NCBI RefSeq assembly: GCF_001463705.1
Contig: NZ_BBWH01000007.1
Span: forward strand, 1 to 33,000
Length of the DNA: 33,000 nucleotides
Direction of reading: 5' to 3'
Source of the DNA: Aureimonas sp. AU12
GTDB lineage: Bacteria; Pseudomonadota; Alphaproteobacteria; Rhizobiales; Rhizobiaceae
A program made the position numbers and the translations under genes. Positions within the stretch are counted from its first letter, which is position 1. Each line of letters begins with the position of its first letter. Positions 5,723 through 18,826 of the stretch are shown one piece after another. The notes under the pieces are model-generated. The model worked only from the letters and a program-made list of their open reading frames with translations. It ran no database searches and had not been told where the DNA came from.

Positions 5723-6793
5723 ATGGCATTGATCACGCTGCGCCAGCTTCTCGACCACGCCGCCGAGTACGGCTACGGCGTACCCGCCTTCAACATCAAC
5801 AACATGGAGCAGGGCCTCGCCATTCTCGCGGCGGCGGCCCAAACCTCCTCCCCGGTGATCCTGCAGGCCAGCCGCGGCGCGCGCGCCTATGCCAACGACC
5901 TCATCCTCGCCCGGCTGATCGAGGGCCTGGCGGAGATGCATCCCGACATTCCGCTCTGCATGCATCTCGACCACGGCAACAACGAAGCGACCTGCCTCAC
6001 CGCCATCCAGCACGGCTTCACCTCGGTGATGATGGACGGTTCGCTGCGCGAGGACGGCACCTCGCTCGCCGATTACGACTACAATGCCGGCATCACCCGG
6101 CGCGTCTCCGACATGGCCCACTGGGCCGGGGCCTCGGTCGAGGGCGAGATCGGCGTGCTCGGCTCGCTCGAAACCGGCGGCGGCGAGCAGGAGGACGGAC
6201 ACGGCTTCGAGGGCACCCTCTCGCACGACCAGCTGCTGACCGACCCGGCCGAGGCCGCGCGCTTCGTCGAGGACACCCATGTCGATGCGCTCGCCGTGGC
6301 GATGGGCACCTCGCACGGCGCCTACAAGTTTTCGCGCAAGCCCGACGGCGACGTCCTGGCGATGAACGTCATCGAGGCGATCCACCGGCGGCTGCCCAAC
6401 ACCCACCTGGTGATGCACGGCTCGTCCTCGGTGCCCGAAGACCTGCAGGAGATCGTCAACAAGTATGGCGGCGAGATCAAGCCGACCTGGGGCGTGCCGG
6501 TCGCCGAGATCCAGCGCGGCATCCGCCACGGCGTGCGCAAGATCAACATTGACACCGACTGCCGTCTCGCGATGACCGGCGCCATCCGCAAGGTCTTCGC
6601 CGAGAAGCCCGAGGAGTTCGACCCTCGCAAGTATCTCGGCCCCGCCATGACGGCGGTGACGAAGCTGGCGGCGCAACGCTTCGAGGAGTTCGGCACCGCC
6701 GGCCACGCCGACAAGATCCGCCCGATCGCGCTGGCCGACATGGCCAAGCGCTACCGCGACGGCTCGCTGCGCACCGAAGTGGCGGCCGCGTAG
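5723..6793 (+). CDS. fba: Class II fructose-bisphosphate aldolase, Calvin-cycle subtype
   Basis: The product is 356 aa. The start ATG at 5723 is preceded by AGGA. Zinc-binding motifs are present: CMHLDHGNN (His81, Asp83, His84), VEGEIGVLG and [13 protein letters not shown], followed by [21 protein letters not shown]. The form with an extended C-terminal part (about 350 aa) is the type common in alphaproteobacterial Calvin-cycle and central-metabolism clusters. It joins dihydroxyacetone phosphate to glyceraldehyde-3-phosphate, and often to erythrose-4-phosphate to give sedoheptulose-1,7-bisphosphate. The second activity would link directly to the erythrose-4-phosphate suggested by the neighbouring isomerases. 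It is the third gene of tkt-tpiA-fba, 36 bases after tpiA. No RuBisCO or phosphoribulokinase gene is in the window. Confidence 0.96.
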
Positions 6794-8243: not shown

Positions 8244-8257
8244 AATGAACGTTCATT
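8244..8257. promoter_or_regulatory. Palindromic TetR operator candidate
   Basis: AATGAAC-GTTCATT is a perfect 14-bp palindrome between the likely -10 element and the TetR-family gene. This is the classic site for an autorepressor that would also block the downstream liu genes. Confidence 0.65.
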
Positions 8258-8269
8258 TTATTGGGCATC

Positions 8270-8878
8270 ATGGTCGAAACCCTCGCCAAACCTCGCGACA
8301 CCGCCGCCGCCATTCGCACCGCCGCGCTCGGAATGTTCGCCGAGAAGGGCTATGCGGCGGTGTCGATGCGCGAGATCGCGGAGGCGTCCGGCATCCGGCA
8401 GGGCGGCATCTACAATCACTTCGCCGCCAAGCAGGACATCCTGCGCGCGCTGATGGTCGGCCACATGGAGGCGCTGATCGCGGCGTGGGAGACACACGCG
8501 CCGATGGGCGACGATCCGGCCGCCGATCTCACCGAATTCGCGCGCTTTCATATCGGCTACCATTTCGAGCGTCCGGAGGCGGTGTTCGTCGCCTACATGG
8601 AGCTGCGCAGCCTGGAGCCGGACAATTTTGCCGCGGTCGAGGCCCTGCGAGACCGCTACGAGCGCATCCTGCGCGCGATTCTGGAGCGCGGCGCCGCAGC
8701 CGGCCTCTTCGCGCTGCGCGACCCCGCCGTCGAGACGCGCGCGCTCATCGCCATGCTCACCGGCGTCACCACCTGGGTCCGCGAGGGCGGGCGCCTGTCG
8801 ATCGCCGAGATCACCGATCTCTATGCCGGGCTCGTACGCCGCGCGGTCGGGCTGCCCGACGCCACCAAGACCAACTGA
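8270..8878 (+). CDS. TetR-family regulator of the leucine degradation operon
   Basis: The product is 202 aa. I use the ATG at 8270 rather than the TTG at 8261; no strong ribosome-binding site is seen for either. Residues about 12-60 are a TetR helix-turn-helix ([39 protein letters not shown]), quoted here by its parts: [20 protein letters not shown] and [17 protein letters not shown]. The remainder is a helical ligand-binding and dimer domain. It is the first gene of the operon, 15 bases before the isovaleryl-CoA dehydrogenase gene. TetR regulators (LiuQ type) control branched-chain amino acid degradation in several proteobacteria, with acyl-CoA or related intermediates as likely effectors. 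Function is inferred from context and the operator upstream. Confidence 0.9.
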
Positions 8879-8893
8879 GGGGAGGAACCGAGC

Positions 8894-10057
8894 ATGTTCG
8901 AGGGCGGACTGGGCTTCGGCCTCAACGAGGATGTCGCGGCGCTACGCGAGGCCGTGCGCCGCTTCGCTTCCGAGCGCATCGCACCGCTGGCAGCCGAGAT
9001 CGACCGCGCCAACGTCTTTCCCGACCACCTCTGGCGCGAAATGGGCGATCTCGGCCTGCACGGGATTACGGTCGGCGAGGAAGATGGCGGCCTCGGCCTC
9101 GGCTATCTCGCCCATTGTGTCGCGATCGAGGAAATCAGCCGCGCCTCGGCCTCGGTCGGCCTCTCCTACGGCGCCCATTCCAACCTCTGCATCAACCAGA
9201 TCCGTCGCAACGGCACGCCCGAACAGAAGGCGCGGTATCTGCCGAAGCTGATCTCCGGCGAGCATGTCGGAGCCCTTGCCATGTCAGAGCCGGGAGCGGG
9301 TTCCGACGTGATGTCGATGAGTCTGCGGGCCGAGCGGCGGGGCGAGGGCTTCGTGCTCAACGGCTCGAAGATGTGGATCACCAACGGCCCCGACGCCTCG
9401 ACGCTGGTGGTCTACGCGCGGACGGACCCGGCCCCGGGACCACGCGGCATCACGGCCTTCCTCGTCGAGCGCGGCATGCCCGGCTTCTCCACCGCGCAGA
9501 AGCTCGACAAGTTGGGCATGCGGGGCTCCAACACCTGCGAACTCGTCTTCGCCGATTGCGAGGTGTCGGCCGAAAACGTCCTCGGGACGGTCGGTGGCGG
9601 CGTGAGCGTGCTGATGAGCGGGCTCGACTACGAGCGCATCGTGCTCGCCGCAGGGCCGCTCGGCATCATGGCCGCCTGCCTCGATGTCGTGATGCCCTAT
9701 GTCCACGAGCGTCGCCAGTTCGGCCAGGCGATCGGCGAGTTCCAGCTGATGCAGGGCAAGCTCGCCGACATGTACGTCACCGCCAATGCGGCGCGGGCCT
9801 ATGTCTATGCCGTCGCGGCCGCCGCCGATCGCGGCGAGACCAGCCGCAAGGACGCCGCCGGCTGCATCCTCTTCGCTGCCGAGACGGCGACGCAGATGGC
9901 GCTTCAGGCGATCCAGGCGCTCGGCGGCGTCGGCTACACCCACGACTATCCGACCGGGCGCCTCCTGCGCGACGCCAAGCTCTACGAGATCGGCGCCGGC
10001 ACCTCGGAGATCCGGCGCATGCTGATCGGGCGCGAGCTCTTCAAGGAAACCGCGTGA
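8894..10057 (+). CDS. liuA: Isovaleryl-CoA dehydrogenase
   Basis: The product is 387 aa with GGGGAGGA before the ATG. It is an acyl-CoA dehydrogenase with the FAD/substrate signature [16 protein letters not shown] (about 127-142), WITNG at 161-165, and [21 protein letters not shown]. The C-terminal signature is [22 protein letters not shown]. The catalytic base sits at Glu247 in [15 protein letters not shown]. That position within the sequence is diagnostic of isovaleryl-CoA dehydrogenases; most other acyl-CoA dehydrogenases have it much nearer the C terminus. It oxidises isovaleryl-CoA to 3-methylcrotonyl-CoA and passes electrons to ETF. Its stop codon shares one base with the next start (TGATG), indicating tight coupling to the carboxylase subunit that uses its product. 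Confidence 0.96.
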
Positions 10058-11664
10058 TGCCCGCGCTCGCCTCCGCCCTCCTCCCGCGATCGCCGGATTG
10101 TCTCGCCAACCGCGCCGCGATGCTGGCGCAGCTGCGCACCATTGAAGAAGCCGCATCGGACGCCCTGGCTGGCGGCGGCGCGGAGGCCCGCCGGCGCCAT
10201 GTGGCGCGCGGCAAGCTGCTGCCTCGCGAGCGGGTGGAGCGGCTGCTCGATCCCGGCTCGCCCTTTCTCGAGATCGGCCTCTTCGCCGCCCATGGCACGC
10301 ATGAGGGCGGCCTCCCGGCGGCCGGCGCCATCGCGGGCATCGGCCGGGTGTCGGGCCGCGAGGTGATGATCCTCGCCAACGACGCCACGGTGAAGGGCGG
10401 CACCTACTTTCCGCTGACGTTGAAGAAGCACCTGCGGGCGCAGGAGATCGCCGCCGAGAACGCCCTGCCCTGCCTCTATCTCGTGGATTCCGGCGGCGCC
10501 AACCTTGGAACCCAAGACGAGGTCTTTCCCGACCGCGATCATTTCGGCCGCATCTTCTTCAACCAGGCACGCATGTCCGCCGCCGGCATCGCGCAGATCG
10601 CGGTGGTGATGGGCTCCTGCACGGCGGGCGGCGCCTATGTGCCGGCGATGAGCGACGAGACGATCATCGTCGAGGGACAGGGCACGATCTTCCTCGCCGG
10701 CCCGCCGCTGGTGAAGGCGGCGACGGGCGAGATCGCCACGGCCGAAGAGCTCGGCGGCGGGCAGACCCATGCCCGGCTCTCCGGCGTCGCCGATCATCTG
10801 GCGACCGACGATGCGCACGCCATCGCCATCGCCCGGCGCATCGTCGCCAACCTCAATCACGTCAGGCGCTGGCCGGTGGCGCTGCAGCCGGTGGAGGCGC
10901 CACTCTTCGAACCCGAGGAGATCCTCGGTCTCGTGCCGGCCGACCCGAAAACGCCCTTCGACATCCGCGAACTCATCGCCCGCGTCGTGGACGGCTCGCG
11001 CTTCGACGAGTTCAAGGCGCTGTTCGGCCCCACCCTCGTCTGCGGCTTCGCCCATCTCCATGGCATGCCCGTCGGCATCCTCGCCAACAACGGCGTTCTG
11101 TTTTCCGAGAGCGCCCAGAAGGGCGCGCATTTCGTCGAGCTCTGCTCGCAGCGCAAGGTGCCGCTCGTCTTCCTGCAGAACATCACAGGCTTCATGGTGG
11201 GGCGGCAATACGAAGCCGGCGGCATCGCCAAGCACGGGGCCAAGCTCGTCAACGCCGTGTCCACCACGGCCGTGCCGAAGCTGACGATGATCGTCGGTGG
11301 CTCCTATGGCGCGGGCAATTACGGCATGTGCGGCCGGGCCTATTCGCCGCGCTTCCTCTGGACCTGGCCGAACGCGCGCATCGCCGTGATGGGCGGCGAG
11401 CAGGCGGCGGGCGTGCTGGCGACCGTCCGGCGCGAAGCGATCGAGCGGCGCGGCGGGGACTGGTCGGCTGACGAGGAGACGGCGTTCAAACGCCCGACCG
11501 TCGAGCAGTTCGAACGCCAGAGCCATCCGCTCTACGCCTCGGCCCGGCTCTGGGACGACGGCATCGTCGATCCCCGCCGCACGCGCGAGGTGCTGGCGCT
11601 GTCGCTGGCCGCCGCGCTCAACGCCGACATCGCGGAGACGCGGTTCGGCCTGTTCCGGATGTGA
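10057..11664 (+). CDS. liuB: Methylcrotonyl-CoA carboxylase, carboxyltransferase (beta) subunit
   Basis: The product is 535 aa, the normal length. The ATG at 10057 overlaps the upstream stop; AAGGAA lies about 10 bases before it. The reading frame continues upstream to 8245 inside the two preceding genes, but that part is a shadow. Typical motifs are [24 protein letters not shown], given here as [20 protein letters not shown], then [56 protein letters not shown] and [16 protein letters not shown]. The two acyl-CoA carboxyltransferase half-domains are complete. It transfers the carboxyl group from biotin on the alpha subunit to 3-methylcrotonyl-CoA, giving 3-methylglutaconyl-CoA. Followed 7 bases later by the alpha subunit gene. 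Confidence 0.96.
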
Positions 11665-11671
11665 GGGCCCC

Positions 11672-13654
11672 ATGCGCAAACTCCTCATCGCCAATCGCGG
11701 CGAGATCGCCTGCCGCATCATCCGCACGGCACGGCGGATGGGGCTTTCGACCGTCGCCGTCCATTCCGATGCCGACCGCGACGCGCTGCATGTCGCCATG
11801 GCCGACGAAGCGGTGGCCATCGGCCCCGCGCCGGCACCCGAGAGCTACCTTCGGGCCGATCGCATCGTCGAGGCGGCGCTGCGCACCGGCGCCGATGCCG
11901 TCCACCCCGGCTACGGCTTCCTGTCGGAGAATGCCGCCTTTGCCGAAGCCATCGAGGGCGCCGGTCTCGTCTTCGTCGGGCCTTCTCCGGCGGCGATCCG
12001 CGCCATGGGGCTGAAGGACGCCGCCAAGCGGCTGATGGCGGAGGCCGGCGTTCCCGTCGTGCCCGGTTATCACGGCGAGCGGCAGGAGCCGGACTTCCTG
12101 GCCGCGCAGGCCGACGGCATCGGCTATCCCGTCCTCATCAAGGCGCGAGCCGGCGGCGGCGGCAAGGGCATCCGGCGCGTCGACGATCCGCGAGACTTCG
12201 CCGCCGCGTTGGCCGGGGCGCAGCGCGAAGCGCTCGCCGCCTTCGGCGATGCCGCCTGCCTCGTCGAGGCCTATGTCGCGACGCCCCGCCATATCGAGAT
12301 CCAGGTGTTCGGCGACGGTCGGGGCGAGGCCGTCCACCTTTTCGAGCGCGACTGCTCGCTGCAGCGCCGGCACCAGAAGGTGCTGGAGGAAGCCCCCGCC
12401 CCCGGCATGCCCGGCGCGATGCGCGCGGCGATGGGCGAGGCTGCCGTGCGCGCCGCGCGGGCCATCCGCTACGGCGGCGCCGGAACGGTGGAGTTCATCG
12501 CGGACGCCTCGGATGGGCTCCGATCCGACCGCTTCTGGTTCATGGAGATGAACACGCGGCTTCAGGTGGAGCATCCCGTCACCGAAGCGATCACCGGGAT
12601 CGACCTCGTGGAATGGCAGCTGCGCATCGCGGCCGGCGAACCCCTGCCGTTGCGCCAGGATGAGATCGCGATGCACGGCCATGCGTTCGAAGCGCGGCTC
12701 TACGCCGAAGACCCCGCCAACGGCTTCCTGCCCGCCACCGGCCGGCTTCGGCACCTGCGGTTTCCCACCGATGCACGGATCGAGACGGGCGTTCGCGAGG
12801 GCGACGAGATCACGCCCTTCTACGACCCGATGATCGCCAAGATCGTCACCCACGGCCGCGACCGTTCGCAGGCCCTGCGGCGCCTTGCCGATGCGTTGGC
12901 GAAGACGCAGATCGAAGGGACGATCACCAATGCCGGCTTCCTCCGCCGCCTCACGGATGACCCCGACGTCGTGGCGGGCAGCGTCGATACCGGACTGATC
13001 GAGCGCAAACTGGCCGGCCTCACCGCACCCGTTGAGCCCGACGACTGGACGCTTGCCGCCGCCACACTGGCCGAACTCGGCGCCTTCGAGCCGGCGCGGG
13101 AAACGGGCGACCCCTGGGATGCCGGCTCGAACTTCCGCCTGTGGGGCCGGGCGGAGCGAACGGTGGCGTGGGCGCAGGCGGATAGTCCCCTGGCCGTCGC
13201 GGTCTCTGCTACCTCCGGTACGCGCTTCTCGCTGGATCTTCGGGGTGGCCGGGTCGACGTGGAGGCCCGCCCTGCCATCGCCGACCGGCCGGCGACGATG
13301 ACGATCGACGGGTGGACACGGCCGGTGCAAGTCCTGCGCACTGAGGCCGGCGTCACCGTCTTCGGCGGAGATGGCACCGCGAGCTTCACCCGGCCTCGCC
13401 ACAGCGCAACCGGCGTCGAACCGGCATCGGACGGGCGCATCGTCTCGCCCATGCCCGGTCTCGTGCGGCTCGTCGGCGCGGAGGTGGGCGCGGCCGTCCG
13501 GCAGGGCGATATGCTGGCCGTGGTCGAAGCGATGAAGATGGAGCACACGTTGCGCGCCTCTCGCGATGGCGTGATCTCGGCGGTCTTCGTCGCCGTCGGC
13601 GATCAGGTGGAGGCCGGGGCTGGGATCGCCGAACTGGAAGCGATCGAGCCGTGA
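11672..13654 (+). CDS. liuD: Methylcrotonyl-CoA carboxylase, biotin carboxylase/carrier (alpha) subunit
   Basis: The product is 660 aa. The N-terminal biotin carboxylase domain starts MRKLLIANRGEIACRIIRTA and has HPGYGFLSENAAFAEA, the ATP-grasp glycine loop KARAGGGGKGIRRV, ERDCSLQRRHQKVLEEAPAP and FMEMNTRLQVEHPVTEAITG. A middle beta-rich region follows. The C-terminal biotinyl domain has VVEAMKMEHTLRA with the biotin-accepting Lys622. It carboxylates its own biotin with bicarbonate and ATP. The long single-chain form with its own biotinyl domain, adjacent to liuB, separates it from acetyl-CoA carboxylase AccC. The stop codon overlaps the next GTG start by 4 bases. Confidence 0.96.
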   Translation: MRKLLIANRGEIACRIIRTARRMGLSTVAVHSDADRDALHVAMADEAVAIGPAPAPESYLRADRIVEAALRTGADAVHPGYGFLSENAAFAEAIEGAGLVFVGPSPAAIRAMGLKDAAKRLMAEAGVPVVPGYHGERQEPDFLAAQADGIGYPVLIKARAGGGGKGIRRVDDPRDFAAALAGAQREALAAFGDAACLVEAYVATPRHIEIQVFGDGRGEAVHLFERDCSLQRRHQKVLEEAPAPGMPGAMRAAMGEAAVRAARAIRYGGAGTVEFIADASDGLRSDRFWFMEMNTRLQVEHPVTEAITGIDLVEWQLRIAAGEPLPLRQDEIAMHGHAFEARLYAEDPANGFLPATGRLRHLRFPTDARIETGVREGDEITPFYDPMIAKIVTHGRDRSQALRRLADALAKTQIEGTITNAGFLRRLTDDPDVVAGSVDTGLIERKLAGLTAPVEPDDWTLAAATLAELGAFEPARETGDPWDAGSNFRLWGRAERTVAWAQADSPLAVAVSATSGTRFSLDLRGGRVDVEARPAIADRPATMTIDGWTRPVQVLRTEAGVTVFGGDGTASFTRPRHSATGVEPASDGRIVSPMPGLVRLVGAEVGAAVRQGDMLAVVEAMKMEHTLRASRDGVISAVFVAVGDQVEAGAGIAELEAIEP

Positions 13655-14517
13655 GCGAGTTCGTCACGCTTCATGAAATGGGGCCGCGAGACGGCTTGCA
13701 GAACGAGCCGCGGCCCATCTCCACCGCCGACAAGATCGCGCTGGTGGACCGTCTCTCGACGGTCGGCTTCCGGCGGATCGAGGTGGCGAGCTTCGTCTCG
13801 CCGCGCCGCGTGCCGCAGATGGCGGACGGAGCCGCGGTCCTCGGCGGCATCACGCGCCGCACGGGCGCCCTCTACACCGCGCTGACGCCGAACCTTCGCG
13901 GTTACGCCGCCGCCCGCGCCTCCGGGGCCGACGAGGTCGCCGTCTTCGTCTCGGCCTCGGAGGGCTTCTCGCAGGCCAATCTCAACTGCTCGATCGCCGA
14001 GAGTCTCGCGCGCTTCCGAGACGTTCTCGGCGCCGCGAAGACCGACGGCGTGCCGGTGCGCGGCTACGTCTCCTGCGTGGTCCGCTGCCCCTATGACGGC
14101 GCCGTCGCGCCGCAAGCCGTGGCGGATGTCGCGGGCTGGCTCGTAGACCTCGGCTGCGGCGAGATCAGCCTCGGCGACACGATCGGCGCGGGGACGCCGG
14201 ACAGCGTCGGCGCCATGCTGGACGCCGTGCTGTCGGCGTTGCCGCCGGACCGGCTCGCCGGTCATTTCCACGACACGGGCGGCCAGGCGCTCGCCAATAT
14301 CGAGGCCTGCCTCGCGCGTGGCCTTCGCGTCTTCGACACCTCCATCGCCGGCCTCGGCGGATGTCCCTTCGCGCCGGGTGCGCCGGGCAATGTCGATACA
14401 CAGCGCGTCAACGCTCGGCTGCGGGCGCTGGGCTTCGAGACCGGGCTGGACGAGGCGGCGCTGGACGCAGCCGCTCGTTTCGCACGCGCGATCACAGGAC
14501 CGGAGGCCCTGGCGTGA
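13651..14517 (+). CDS. liuE: Hydroxymethylglutaryl-CoA lyase
   Basis: The product is 288 aa. The start is GTG at 13651, overlapping the carboxylase stop (GTGA). The HMGL-like TIM-barrel motifs are MGPRDGLQNEP (about 10-20), IEVASFVSPRRVPQMAD, GDTIGAGTP, HFHDTGGQALANI and the catalytic cysteine loop GLGGCPFAPGAPGNVDTQR. It cleaves 3-hydroxy-3-methylglutaryl-CoA into acetoacetate and acetyl-CoA, the last step of leucine breakdown. The gene order here places it before the hydratase that makes its substrate. The stop codon overlaps the next start by 4 bases. Confidence 0.96.
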   Translation: MSEFVTLHEMGPRDGLQNEPRPISTADKIALVDRLSTVGFRRIEVASFVSPRRVPQMADGAAVLGGITRRTGALYTALTPNLRGYAAARASGADEVAVFVSASEGFSQANLNCSIAESLARFRDVLGAAKTDGVPVRGYVSCVVRCPYDGAVAPQAVADVAGWLVDLGCGEISLGDTIGAGTPDSVGAMLDAVLSALPPDRLAGHFHDTGGQALANIEACLARGLRVFDTSIAGLGGCPFAPGAPGNVDTQRVNARLRALGFETGLDEAALDAAARFARAITGPEALA

Positions 14518-15284
14518 GTGCATCGACGATCCGCATCGAGGTCGAGGCGGGGGTCGCGACCCTGACGCTGACACGCGCGGCCCGGCACAACGCGATGAAC
14601 GCCGAGATGATCGCCGAGCTGACCGATGCCGCGCGCCGGCTCGGCGAGGACCGCTCGGTCGTCGCCGTCGTGCTCACCGGCGAAGGCGCGAGCTTTTCGG
14701 CCGGGGCCGATCTCAGCTGGATGCGCAGCCAGTTCGACGCGACCCGCGAAACACGGATCGAAGCGGCGATGACGCTGGCGCGCATGCTGAAGGCACTGAA
14801 CGAACTGCCGAAGCCGCTCATCGGCCGGATCAACGGTCAGGCATTCGGCGGCGGTCTCGGGCTGATCGCGGTCTGCGACGTTGCCGTTGCCGTCGATACC
14901 GCTCGCTTCGCCTTCACCGAGGTCCGCCTCGGGTTGATCCCCGCGACGATCTCGCCCTATGCCCTGCGCCGCACCGGCGAAGCCAACGCCCGGCGGGTGT
15001 TCTTCTCCGGCCGCGCCTTCGACGCGAACGAGGCCGTGACGCTCGGGCTCGTCGCGCGAACGGCGAGCGCCATCGAACTCGACGCGGCGGTGGATCGCGA
15101 GATCGCGCCCTATCGCGGCGTCGATGCCGGCGCCGTTGCGCTGGCCAAGCGCCTCGTTCTCTCGAATACCGCATCGCTAGACGAGACAGCCCTGCGCCGG
15201 ACCGCCGAACAGTTGGCAGATTGCTGGGAGCGTCCGGCGACGCACGCCGCGATTGCGGCCTTTCTTTCGAAAACTGGCGGGTAG
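14514..15284 (+). CDS. liuC: Enoyl-CoA hydratase-family protein, probable methylglutaconyl-CoA hydratase
   Basis: The product is 256 aa from the GTG at 14514, which overlaps the lyase stop (GTGA). The crotonase fold is clear: LTLTRAARHNAMNAEMIAEL, the oxyanion-hole segment GEGASFSAGADLSWM (about 57-71), and GQAFGGGLGLIAVCDVAVA with FTEVRLGLIPATISPY. The Glu in FTEVRLG fits a hydratase catalytic acid. ADLSWM is typical of methylglutaconyl-CoA hydratases, which hydrate 3-methylglutaconyl-CoA to HMG-CoA. Last gene of the operon; no clear terminator follows. Substrate assignment is mostly from operon context. Confidence 0.92.
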   Translation: MSASTIRIEVEAGVATLTLTRAARHNAMNAEMIAELTDAARRLGEDRSVVAVVLTGEGASFSAGADLSWMRSQFDATRETRIEAAMTLARMLKALNELPKPLIGRINGQAFGGGLGLIAVCDVAVAVDTARFAFTEVRLGLIPATISPYALRRTGEANARRVFFSGRAFDANEAVTLGLVARTASAIELDAAVDREIAPYRGVDAGAVALAKRLVLSNTASLDETALRRTAEQLADCWERPATHAAIAAFLSKTGG

Positions 15285-16251: not shown

Positions 16252-16560
16252 CTATTCGGGGCTCTGGCCGGGAACAAGGCCGCCGGAGGGTGTCGAGGCC
16301 ATGACCGAAGGCGTGATGCCGTTGACCAGCGGGACGCTCGACGGCTTGCCAGTCGCGTCGCCGAGACCGAAGAGGAAGGGTAGCCCGTTGTTCTCGGTCA
16401 GCAGCACGACGCGCCCATCCGGCAACACGTAGCGCTCGACGACCTCGGCGCGCTCGCGGGGCGAGAGCCGCACCCCGGCCTCCTCCGCCTGCGCGGTCAG
16501 AGGCGAGAGAGCCGCGGCCATGGCGGCGACGGCGAAGGTGTTGGTGAGGAACGGTCTCAT
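16252..16560 (-). CDS. Small exported protein with TPSGGLVPGQ tail (first of three)
   Basis: The product is 102 aa from the ATG at 16558-16560, preceded by AAGGAT. A Sec signal peptide is visible (MRPFLTNTFAVAAMAAALSP then LTAQA, cut before EEAG). The mature part is about 77 residues: LSPRERAEVVERYVLPDGRV, VLLTENNGLPFLFGLGDATG and a Pro/Ser-rich stretch ending STPSGGLVPGQSPE. No domain is recognised. The terminal TPSGGLVPGQ recurs in the products at 17195-17335 and 17918-18238. It is the last of five minus-strand genes for small exported proteins. The terminator at 16685-16709 separates it from the gene before it, so it probably has its own promoter. Confidence 0.8.
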   Translation of the reverse strand: MRPFLTNTFAVAAMAAALSPLTAQAEEAGVRLSPRERAEVVERYVLPDGRVVLLTENNGLPFLFGLGDATGKPSSVPLVNGITPSVMASTPSGGLVPGQSPE

Positions 16561-16684
16561 CGCGTGATCCTTCGAACGGGCTCGACGATCGAACGGATCG
16601 GAGCGTTGCGACGACAACGGCAGCGTGGATAGCGAGTTCCGGAAGCGCCCCGGCTTGCGGCGCGCGGCCTGACGGATCGCCAAG

Positions 16685-16709
16685 AAAAAGGCCCCGGAAG
16701 GGGCCTTTT
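16685..16709 (-). terminator. Intrinsic terminator between two small exported-protein genes
   Basis: GGCCCC (16690-16695) and GGGGCC (16700-16705) form a perfect stem with a GGAA loop, flanked by A-run and T-run on each side. It lies just past the stop codon of the 16729-17052 gene and would work in both directions. Confidence 0.85.
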
Positions 16710-16728
16710 CTCCCTCATGGCACGGACG

Positions 16729-17052
16729 TCAGTAACCGTAGCGATAATTGTTCGCCTTGCGCGCGATGTTGTGCGACGCTCGATTCTGCATCCGCTCGAT
16801 CTGGCGACGCGAACGCGGATCGACATGGCCGTTGTTGTAGGCGCGTGCGCGGCGCTCGACTCGGTCGATGCGGTGCTGTTGGCGCTGGAGCCGGGCGGCC
16901 TCGCGAGGGGTCAGCCGACCCGATCGGTAACCGCGCTCGATACGCTCCTGTTGGCGGTACTGCCGCACATCGCTGCGATAGGTCTGCGCCAAGGCCGGCG
17001 CTGCGGTCGTGAAGAGAAGAGCGGCGGCAGCGCCCCAGATCATCGTCTTCAT
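16729..17052 (-). CDS. Exported Arg/Gln-rich helical protein
   Basis: The product is 107 aa from the ATG at 17050-17052, with AGGGAG upstream. It has a signal peptide (MKTMIWGAAAALLFTTAAPA then LAQ, cut before TYRSD). The mature protein is very basic and helical, with RQYRQQERIERGYRSGRLTP, REAARLQRQQHRIDRVERRA and RSRRQIERMQNRASHNIARK, ending in NNYRYGY. It resembles small secreted proteins common in rhizobia that carry SGRLTPREAARL-like repeats; their function is unknown. It lacks the TPSGG tail of its neighbours. The sequence could pack as antiparallel helices and bind an acidic polymer, but this is speculation. Confidence 0.8.
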   Translation of the reverse strand: MKTMIWGAAAALLFTTAAPALAQTYRSDVRQYRQQERIERGYRSGRLTPREAARLQRQQHRIDRVERRARAYNNGHVDPRSRRQIERMQNRASHNIARKANNYRYGY

Positions 17053-17194
17053 AGCTCGAACTCCCTGTTCCACGGATGTCGAAGGTTGTACCGGCACGCG
17101 GCTGAACCGCACCTGAATGGGTCGCCCCTCGCCTGATATGACGTGGAGAGCCTAAGCGTCATGTCGGTCCATTGCCGGCAACAGATCCCTGTCG

Positions 17195-17335
17195 CTAGTG
17201 CTCGGTCTGCCCGGGAACGAGCCCGCCCGACGGTGTCTGTCCGGTGCCCGTCGGGGTCAAACGGCCGGATGGGACGCAGGCGGCGAGCGCCAGCATGGCG
17301 GACAAAGCTGCGATCAAACCGAGGGAATGGCGCAT
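17195..17335 (-). CDS. 46-residue lipoprotein with TPSGGLVPGQ tail (second of three)
   Basis: A very short frame from the ATG at 17333-17335 to TAG at 17195-17197. It starts MRHSLGLIAALSAMLALAAC, a lipoprotein signal with lipobox LAAC and Cys20 as the lipidated residue. The mature peptide is 27 residues: CVPSGRLTPTGTGQ followed by TPSGGLVPGQTEH. The tail matches those of the proteins at 16252-16560 and 17918-18238, although codons differ. A weak AAAGA lies upstream of the start. Such tiny Cys-anchored peptides with a Pro/Gly tail recall other small alphaproteobacterial lipoproteins. The lipobox plus the shared tail make it a real gene in my view. Confidence 0.72.
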   Translation of the reverse strand: MRHSLGLIAALSAMLALAACVPSGRLTPTGTGQTPSGGLVPGQTEH

Positions 17336-17358
17336 GTCATCTTTCAGTGGGAAGCTGT

Positions 17359-17385
17359 GGCGAGGCCGGAAACCCGGCGCTCGCC
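17359..17385 (-). terminator. Hairpin after the 17405-17758 gene
   Basis: GGCGAG + GCCGG (17359-17369) pairs with CCGGC + CTCGCC (17374-17385) with one bulged base. No clear T-run on the minus strand, so a weak terminator or processing structure. Confidence 0.4.
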
Positions 17386-17404
17386 TCTCTATAATGCCGG
17401 TCGA

Positions 17405-17758
17405 TCAGCCTTCGCGGCCGAGGGGGATGCCGATGCCGCTATTGGTCTCCGGGATCGCGCCAGGGACGCGGGTGAGCGTGTTGCCAGCCGTTCCGGACGC
17501 ATCCGGTGCCATGACGCCGTAGGCGCCGACCCCGTTCGAGAGGCCGCCGGGGCCGCGCGGGCTTCCGCTGCGGCTGGAGGTCGACGCATCGAGCCCGACG
17601 CCCGGCAGTCCGGTGCCGCCGGTCTCGACGGGCGTGCCGCGTCCGAGTTCGACGGTCCCGCCATTGCGCGGAATGGGTGCGGAAGACTGCGCGGCGGCGG
17701 CGGTCGCAAGGCCGGCGACGGCGGCAAAGGTTGCGGCAGCCAGAGTGGAGCGGATCAT
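17405..17758 (-). CDS. Exported Gly/Ser/Pro-rich protein
   Basis: The product is 117 aa from the ATG at 17756-17758. The signal peptide is MIRSTLAAATFAAVAGLATA followed by AAAQ, with cleavage before SSAP. The mature chain is low complexity: PIPRNGGTVELGRGTPVETG, GTGLPGVGLDASTSSRSGSP, then PGGLSNGVGAYGVMAPDASG, and an end of SGIGIPLGREG. No domain is recognised, and it is probably disordered. The end is Gly/Ile/Pro-rich but does not match the TPSGG tail of three neighbours. It is one of five adjacent genes for small exported proteins. The ribosome-binding site is weak (GGGAAC). Confidence 0.7.
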   Translation of the reverse strand: MIRSTLAAATFAAVAGLATAAAAQSSAPIPRNGGTVELGRGTPVETGGTGLPGVGLDASTSSRSGSPRGPGGLSNGVGAYGVMAPDASGTAGNTLTRVPGAIPETNSGIGIPLGREG

Positions 17759-17917
17759 GAGTGTGTTCCCATCAGAGAGGTCCGGGACGAAACGGGCGAA
17801 GGATGGGACAGTTCCGCGGAGCCCCGGCCATCCAATCGGAGGTCGGAGCTCGCCGAGCCCGCACGTTTCGCCCCAGTCGGAACGAAGACGAGCAGGCCCG
17901 CCCTCGCTCGCCAAGGA

Positions 17918-18238
17918 TCAGTTCGAACTCTGGCCCGGCACGATCCCGCCCGACGGTGTGGTCTCCGTGGCGACTGCGGCCGCGGCGGGATCCATGCCCT
18001 CGGTCGGCACGAGCGAACCATCCCGCGACGTGGCGCTCGTCGAGGTCGGATCGGTCATGCCGACGCTCGGGGCCCGCGTCGTGTCGCCGGTGGTGGCGGC
18101 GGCGCCCATCTGATCGGGCGACGCGTTGTCGACGCTCGCAGGTGGCGTCACCGGCGCGGGCGCGGGCGTTGCGGACTGGGCGAACGCCGGCGCTGCAGAG
18201 AAGGCCAGCGCTGCTGTTGCGGCCAAAAGTCGGTTCAT
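17918..18238 (-). CDS. Small exported protein with TPSGGIVPGQ tail (third of three)
   Basis: The product is 106 aa from the ATG at 18236-18238, with GGGAG upstream. A signal peptide, MNRLLAATAALAFSAAPAFA, precedes a mature part rich in Ala, Thr, Pro and Ser, for example QSATPAPAPVTPPASVDNAS. Short partial repeats such as SVGMTDPTS and SLVPTEGMDP follow, and it ends TETTPSGGIVPGQSSN. The tail is shared with the lipoprotein at 17195-17335 and the protein at 16252-16560. The middle looks disordered. It is the most upstream gene of the group, facing a 588-base gene-free stretch that probably holds its promoter. Confidence 0.78.
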   Translation of the reverse strand: MNRLLAATAALAFSAAPAFAQSATPAPAPVTPPASVDNASPDQMGAAATTGDTTRAPSVGMTDPTSTSATSRDGSLVPTEGMDPAAAAVATETTPSGGIVPGQSSN

Positions 18239-18826
18239 CGGATCGTCTCCCAAAACGGGTCCGCGAAGCGGACGGTCGTGGAGGGAAGGCCGGCAGGACG
18301 GCATTGGTTTCGCTTGGCGCGTCACGAAGCCGTCAGCACGCTCCGGCCGCCGGAGCGATCGAAGCACGTCGCAAGAGGTGCACGGCCGGTCGGTTCATCC
18401 CACGATGAAGCGCTTTCAAGAGACTTGAAAGAACAGTTTCCGATTCCATCCCGAGCCGTGCTGTTCGCATGAACAAGTCGCCGACGAGAGCGTGGTGAAG
18501 CTGTGGCGAAAACCCGCCTTCGCCGAGACCGGCAGTCTATCCTCGCGGCAAACGAGGGATATGCAAGGCTATCCCCCTTGGGTGCCGATACGAAATGTGA
18601 AGTGGCGTCGTGAAACTTTTGCTTGCAAACACATCGGACTGATTGCAAGAGATTGATGTTCGGGCAAATTCGCGAACTCGGGTAATGGACGAATTGCGTA
18701 TCGAAGGCGCCTCCTTCGGGCGGTTGGCGAAAGCCGGCTGCGATGTATCGGTTCCTTTTCCTCGCATCAAGACTTGCCTGCCAGGCCCGCAAGGGCAACG
18801 AATAAGCCAAGGAAAAGGGTTTCGTC
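18239..18826. other. 588-base gene-free region with cspA leader
   Basis: No convincing gene on either strand. It should hold the promoter of the 17918-18238 gene (minus) and that of cspA (plus). Its right half is less GC-rich than the rest of the window. Visible elements are two TTGCAA copies exactly 20 bases apart (18623-18628 and 18643-18648) and a hairpin CGAAGG/CCTTCG at 18702-18718. A long untranslated leader before cspA, as in other cold-shock genes, is likely but not proven. Confidence 0.55.

Follow-up and report, generated by a model that had tools for sequence, protein, structure and literature searches.

A shared C-terminal tail on unrelated small exported proteins of Aureimonas and its relatives: a candidate recognition module with predicted general stress control

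The stretch of DNA considered here, hereafter the window, comprises positions 1 to 33,000 of contig NZ_BBWH01000007.1 of Aureimonas sp. AU12 (assembly GCF_001463705.1) and contains, from position 18238 down to 16252 of the minus strand, a run of five short genes in the order C, H, B, an arginine-rich gene and A; the family letters A to H, like the grouping of the carrier proteins, are labels of this analysis. The products of A, B and C all terminate in TPSGG[L/I]VPGQ followed by exactly three residues, and the same end occurs a fourth time in this genome, on another protein (family D) encoded by contig C24. This common end, the tail, is real, and its position, conservation, carriers and possible function are the subject of this report. 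The features of the run are the following:

16252 to 16560, minus strand: family A gene, encoding a 102-amino-acid protein with a Sec-like N-terminus that ends STPSGGLVPGQSPE; its ATG lies inside a longer open reading frame (ORF), 16252-16683
16255 to 16296, minus strand: C-terminal tail of family A (STPSGGLVPGQSPE)
16616 to 16640, minus strand: EcfG-like promoter GGAAC-N16-CGTT, 80 nucleotides upstream of the family A start
16729 to 17052, minus strand: gene for a small arginine-rich, tailless protein with a Sec-like N-terminus and without a confident Pfam match
17195 to 17335, minus strand: family B gene, encoding a 46-amino-acid lipoprotein-like product that consists of a lipobox-like cysteine, a short linker and the tail QTPSGGLVPGQTEH
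17198 to 17239, minus strand: C-terminal tail of family B
17405 to 17758, minus strand: family H gene, encoding a tailless glycine/proline-rich protein of 117 amino acids with a Sec-like N-terminus
17791 to 17815, minus strand: EcfG-like promoter GGAAC-N16-CGTT, 57 nucleotides upstream of the family H start
17918 to 18238, minus strand: family C gene, encoding a Ser/Thr/Ala-rich protein of 106 amino acids with a Sec-like N-terminus that ends TTPSGGIVPGQSSN; its ATG lies inside 17918-18367
17921 to 17962, minus strand: C-terminal tail of family C
18286 to 18311, minus strand: putative extracytoplasmic function (ECF)-type promoter GAAAC-N17-CCTT, upstream of family C, with one mismatch in the -35 element

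The ORFs and the translated ends agree with the original prediction, made from the letters of the window, that three minus-strand products share this end, that one of the carriers is a lipoprotein and two have Sec signals (B being lipoprotein-like, A and C having Sec-like N-termini), and that the two other genes of the run encode small secreted proteins, since 16729-17052 and 17405-17758 give short products with hydrophobic N-termini. None of the five proteins comes near a curated cut-off in Pfam, NCBIfam or PHROGs, and a sequence search of the PDB gave two weak matches (E 0.2 and 0.25).

A DNA pattern encoding PSGG[LIVMF]VPGQ was searched for together with its reversed form as a control. The pattern has 4 matches in the genome of the window, occurs at 28 places in 12 of the 21 genomes of the genus, with 1 to 4 strict matches per positive genome, and is present in 10 of the 199 genomes of a family-level sample, while the control gave 0 in each case. 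All of the 28 genus matches are in frame and have exactly three residues between the Q and the stop codon. A scan of GTDB contigs returned 89 stretches, 34 from Aurantimonadaceae (Aureimonas, Aurantimonas, Jiella, Fulvimarina and Mangrovicella) and 55 from other organisms; three residues follow the Q in 52 of the 54 distinct contexts of the former (57 of 59 with further genome loci added), the exceptions having 8 (L061) and 10 (L121), but in only 1 of the 55 contexts of the latter (L066). This contrast is a strong position control and bears out the C-terminal place that had been proposed for the tail. In organisms other than Aurantimonadaceae, the single L066 ORF was the only case in which the strict letters formed a C-terminal tail of this kind, relaxed tails not having been searched for there; likewise, a literature search of limited extent showed no such tail, and the matches listed for its letters contained only VPGQ, in unrelated subjects. 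A chance or low-complexity resemblance, for which the glycine and proline content speaks and nothing else, is refuted by these counts, the reversed pattern being absent from all of the listed genus and family genomes and the position control standing against it, and it can be given practically no weight.

Families A and C are found in the same 14 of the 21 genus genomes and are jointly missing from the other 7. More widely, profile matches to family A occur in 15 of 247 family genomes, belonging to 8 of 109 genera, and in 1 of 297 genomes of an order-wide sample, which is the window's own.

The constraint appears to act on the peptide. Between the four tails of the window's own genome, 3 to 5 of the ten codons differ synonymously in each pair and 0 or 1 residue differs. 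Furthermore, in 72 tail genes the core of nine codons is present in 70 distinct DNA versions that encode only 13 peptides. These 72 genes were chosen by a tail expression, so that invariance at the chosen positions is partly a matter of construction, and for this reason we rely more on family A, which was collected by whole-protein and profile homology, a less biased search even though its query includes the tail. The tail, or a variant of it differing by one or two residues, was present in 15 of the 15 family A matches of the genus (one of them a contig-edge fragment) and in 16 of the 16 of the family-wide sample, the variants including TASGGIVPGQ, TPSNGIVPGQ, TPSGGLIPGQ, TPSGGRVPGQ and TPAGGIVPGQ. 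An alignment of 22 sequences (A1), from which the TPAGG copy, found later, is absent, has T90, S92, G94, P97, G98 and Q99 invariant, and the overall consensus is T-P-S-x-G-[LIV]-[VI]-P-G-Q-x-x-x-stop, with the fourth residue free. The body of family A is conserved too, and the tail is therefore not the only constrained part of this protein. Three relatives of family A (P0012, P0013 and P0015) have a lipobox-like N-terminus and end in the variants TPSDGVVPGQ, TPSSGVVPGQ and TPSHGVVPGQ, for which reason family A may exist in a soluble and in a lipoprotein form. The counts of DNA versions against peptides and the family A homologues uphold the view of the original prediction that selection has acted on the peptide, in place of a recent duplication of DNA, and that the tail is kept in sister species and genera. 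The same note had named random positions, cytoplasmic carriers and lack of conservation as observations that would speak against the tail; none of these was found, with the qualification that 7 of the 21 genus genomes are without A and C.

The proteins that carry the tail fall, in our own grouping, into seven types: A, B, C, D (L004, L025), E (L026), DUF4142 and DUF7282. The lipoprotein-like proteins of family B are only 45-63 amino acids long, and the tailed DUF4142 and DUF7282 proteins match their Pfam domains at 131 bits (PF13628) and 85.8 bits (PF23951). Beyond what the original prediction described, the carriers include these domain proteins and products of genes unlinked to the run. Export was judged by a crude hydropathy rule, not by a signal-peptide predictor: a start followed by a hydrophobic N-terminus could be placed in 70 of 73 tail ORFs, and among controls 74 of 231 ORFs passed nearly the same rule. 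The three tail ORFs that failed are a fragment at the edge of a contig, the decayed C gene of L061 and L125, which comes from another organism. Applied to one gene the rule is weak, but the contrast between the two sets is clear and supports the claim that the carriers are exported proteins. As for the failure at L061, a short signal-less ORF on the minus strand of this Aurantimonas endophytica locus keeps the tail (TPSGGIVPGQTDDGGQSN, at 6130-6156) beside family H, and is probably the decayed family C gene.

The tail behaves as a suffix that is present on some members of a family and absent from others. In a survey of 19 genomes, 20 matches to DUF4142 were found, 3 of them below the Pfam cut-off, with the tail on 1 (G061, Aurantimonas) and off in 18, 1, the copy in the window's own genome, being not judgeable, and in the same survey none of 3 matches to DUF7282 carried it; Aurantimonas has tailed versions of both. 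The own-genome DUF4142 copy (G000:C12:4327-4719, L155) has one in-frame TAG and is either a decayed gene or an assembly error. The Aurantimonas tailed DUF4142 and DUF7282 proteins and the family C proteins of Leaf443 are similar, by eye, over about 30 C-terminal residues that include the linker, and this resemblance in the linker between carriers of different families suggests that the tail may have spread by fusion. When protein databases were searched with the tail region of the tailed DUF4142 protein, 2 proteins were obtained, and 3 with that of family C, which is too few to extend the list of carrier types. The same linker residues are among the arguments for common descent only, in which the copies of a duplicated ancestral gene stayed alike at the end alone and no partner is shared; in addition, the signal peptides of C and D are similar, so that these two families may be related, and A, B and C lie mostly in one neighbourhood in the loci that were read. 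We consider this explanation very unlikely, because DUF4142 and DUF7282, which both have tailless relatives, belong to different Pfam families and because an end free of constraint would lose its residues as the third codon positions turn over.

The regions upstream of the tail genes were searched for promoter motifs. The motif set beforehand for EcfG, the regulator of the general stress response, was GGAAC-N16/17-CGTT, and the counts expected per 70 genes derive from the density of each motif in the loci of the tail genes, where the real sites were counted in. In the window, GGAAC-N16-CGTT occurs twice on the minus strand, once before A and once before H, and once on the plus strand, at position 475, with 0.77 expected per window. 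Across the tail genes the preset motif stands upstream of 11 of 70 (0.24 expected), namely of both tailed DUF4142 genes and of 9 of the 28 genes of family A; these 9 all belong to the 12 distinct A genes of Aureimonas. With the -35 element widened to G[GC]AAC, the motif is found upstream of 28 of 70 tail genes (0.62 expected) and of 1 of 237 called control genes, and when reversed upstream of 3 of 70 and 3 of 237, respectively; sites of the widened type are present in 13 of 21 family B genes (none Aureimonas), mostly as GCAAC-N16/17-CGTT, and in both tailed DUF7282 genes. A second form, GGAAC-N16/17-NCTT, precedes 13 of 70 tail genes (0.57 expected) and 3 of 237 controls (reversed, 1 of 70 and 3 of 237), and is the form seen with 11 of 14 C genes, 1 of 2 D genes and the one E gene. 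In S. melonis the EcfG motif is GGAAC-N17-20-GTT, and its table of sites contains GCAAC variants and varied -10 letters (PMC6599016). As for the regulatory system itself, PhyR-NepR-EcfG, the component searched for was NepR (PF18557), which was found in 26 of 27 genomes. EcfG control of the tail genes is likely as a prediction from these sites, and stress would probably lead to joint production of the tail proteins.

The tail, its fixed place, its conservation as a peptide, its unrelated carriers with hydrophobic N-termini, its suffix behaviour and the enrichment of EcfG-like sites can all be read from the DNA. The explanation that we favour, to which we assign an even chance, is that the tail is a portable C-terminal recognition module on small envelope proteins of the PhyR-NepR-EcfG general stress response in Aureimonas, Aurantimonas, Jiella and their relatives. 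In this explanation EcfG control is inferred, as are the single partner and the docking to which its binding would lead. A stressed cell would use EcfG to induce several unrelated exported proteins that have one flexible end in common. Once the proteins had been exported by Sec or lipidated, a partner common to all of them in the envelope would hold this end in a site recognising PSxG and VPGQ at a distance of three residues from the free C-terminus. The carriers would thereby be docked or gathered, and the roughly 50-residue lipoprotein of family B, little besides anchor, linker and tail, would present the tail at a membrane. A common envelope reader is suggested by the strictness of the residues and their constant spacing from the free end in exported proteins that are otherwise unrelated, and family B, which is almost only anchor and tail, suggests that activity resides in the tail. 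The original prediction had proposed that the tag may be recognised by a surface partner, a protease or a polymer. PDZ-type proteases read the very last residues of their substrates, and the variability of the last three residues of the tail argues against a reader of this type. A more specific form of this reading, which we hold tentatively and at somewhat less than an even chance, is that the tail serves as an address label in an envelope docking system of the general stress response that has not been described before. The label would be a soluble, membrane-free tag read by one dedicated receptor. It would have been joined by fusion to exported proteins of unrelated kinds, those with DUF4142 and DUF7282 domains among them, and a minimal lipoprotein would consist of nearly the tag alone.

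Part of the same evidence would fit other functions. The tail could be a processing or attachment signal, at which an envelope protease or a transpeptidase cuts in or after the tail or joins the carrier to a polymer, in the manner of a sortase substrate without a membrane segment; its distribution, with several copies per genome, unrelated carriers and a suffix that is on or off within one family, resembles that of PEP-CTERM and GlyGly-CTERM, and the fixed distance to the C-terminus also speaks for it. Nevertheless, the motif is usually followed by three residues only, with no hydrophobic segment or basic cluster, the lipoprotein carriers would already be anchored, and exosortase (PF09721) was found in 0 of 27 genomes, sortase and rhombosortase not having been searched for, so that we regard this function as unlikely. 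Self-association, in which tails with their Pro/Gly turns attach to each other and so form a periplasmic or surface layer under stress, would agree with the low-complexity Ser/Thr/Gly/Pro carriers of families C and D and with the lipid-anchored minimal carrier B. This possibility is quite unlikely in our view, since each protein has a single tail, a positive genus genome has 1 to 4 strict matches, and the strict retention of T, S, G, P, G and Q in family A would exceed the need of a generic turn. Short exported precursors with a conserved end also recall small exported pheromone precursors, from which the tail would be cut off and released as a peptide signal; here the last three residues vary, the tail is found on domain proteins of 192 and 231 amino acids and on lipoproteins as well, and no receptor was recognised in the loci scanned, in which some of the neighbours were covered, and one Aurantimonas locus contains a pyroglutamyl peptidase. 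A peptide signal is highly improbable on these grounds.

Several observations weigh against the recognition module under stress control. The preset motif accompanies only families A and DUF4142, and the GCAAC and NCTT variants were admitted post hoc, after the data had been seen; 29 of 70 tail genes have neither motif, some of them being second genes behind family B. Orthologues were counted as separate genes, and the 237 controls were called by a rough procedure that begins each ORF at its earliest start, by which control sites may be hidden; family H of the window, which has a site, is not among the positives of this procedure. The expected counts, being derived from density, are free of this problem. 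The nepR gene, taken as a local control, gives a mixed picture: of its 6 loci, 0 have the exact motif, and 3 have GGAAC-N16-[G/A/T]GTT upstream, with a divergent partner, if one mismatch is allowed. Moreover, promoter and tail are separable, given that three tailless DUF4142 orthologues have EcfG-like sites. The structure model of family A is poor, with a mean predicted local distance difference test (pLDDT) score of 54 and most of the tail below 50, and is uninformative on binding. Finally, a partner for the tail was not found, in a search that included no whole-genome phyletic profiling.

In the neighbourhood of the tail genes, two Aureimonas loci (L097, L113) have the order cold-shock gene, C, H, A, and B is seen between H and A. 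Two Aurantimonas loci (L061, L083) keep the gene set in part, with an inserted gene of methyltransferase type (scanned against Pfam in L055) or for an exported protein of about 190 amino acids, and in all four of these loci H-like genes adjoin tail genes. Family H, which is tailless and in the window is preceded by a separate EcfG-like site, may be a companion in function to the tail genes; letters resembling SG[IV]GIP are seen near its C-terminus in the window, L097 and L113. The exported protein of about 190 amino acids, whose copies share cysteine residues, lies upstream of B-A or of A in L050, L055, L061, L082, L098 and L110, loci of Jiella, some Aurantimonas and Fulvimarina, and is a possible partner of the tail; it has no Pfam match in three copies and no NCBIfam match in two, and is absent from the ORFs listed at the Aureimonas loci L097 and L113. 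Ten neighbours scanned against Pfam included no sorting enzyme, and one Aurantimonas locus had the pyroglutamyl peptidase mentioned above. The gene pdxJ was tried as an anchor of synteny and failed, lying about 50 kb away from family A in G013 and G019. Elsewhere in the window, positions 8245-15281 contain genes for a carboxyltransferase, a biotin carboxylase (with a domain match to methylcrotonyl-CoA carboxylase), an HMGL-like protein and an enoyl-CoA hydratase, probably for ordinary leucine breakdown.

Among known systems, the cargo-loading peptides of encapsulins are short C-terminal tails on unrelated cytoplasmic cargo that are read by one partner; the carriers described here look exported, and the analogy only concerns how a tail of this kind can work. 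PEP-CTERM is a short C-terminal homology domain, present several times per genome on diverse signal-peptide proteins that are otherwise barely homologous, many of which share an upstream regulatory site (PMC1569441). The tail resembles this system, in which the exosortase is EpsH, in that its carriers have hydrophobic N-termini (by the crude rule given above) and belong to different Pfam families, but PEP-CTERM has a transmembrane helix and a basic cluster after its motif, and neither is present here. GlyGly-CTERM, the rhombosortase signal, is likewise found on proteins homologous in the C-terminal region only, in families with and without the suffix (PMC3237569). The tail shares with it unrelated carriers having only the end in common and the on/off behaviour within families, but GlyGly-CTERM is tripartite, with an SGGS-like motif, a membrane helix and a basic end, and occurs in many genera, whereas this tail is a short soluble end. 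Despite the matching logic, the tail falls outside both systems, having no membrane helix or basic end and with exosortase found in 0 of 27 genomes, and a dedicated reader, if there is one, is unlikely to be a known sortase-like enzyme, because the tail is short, soluble and without a membrane segment. The EcfG general stress regulon has promoters of the GGAAC-N-GTT type, which the EcfG-like sites described here resemble, and many members of unknown function; the accessible part of its description does not mention a shared protein tail (PMC6599016), and EcfG control of the genes considered here is predicted. Shared C-terminal signatures on unrelated exported proteins have earlier led to whole sorting systems, PEP-CTERM and GlyGly-CTERM among them, and the shared tag described here is an indication of a further system, for docking or processing in the cell envelope, that has not been described, with a new kind of envelope receptor as a possibility for its reader. 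The tail gives access to exported proteins whose function is unknown and whose regulation by stress is probable, and the tail peptide could be used directly as bait for a partner.

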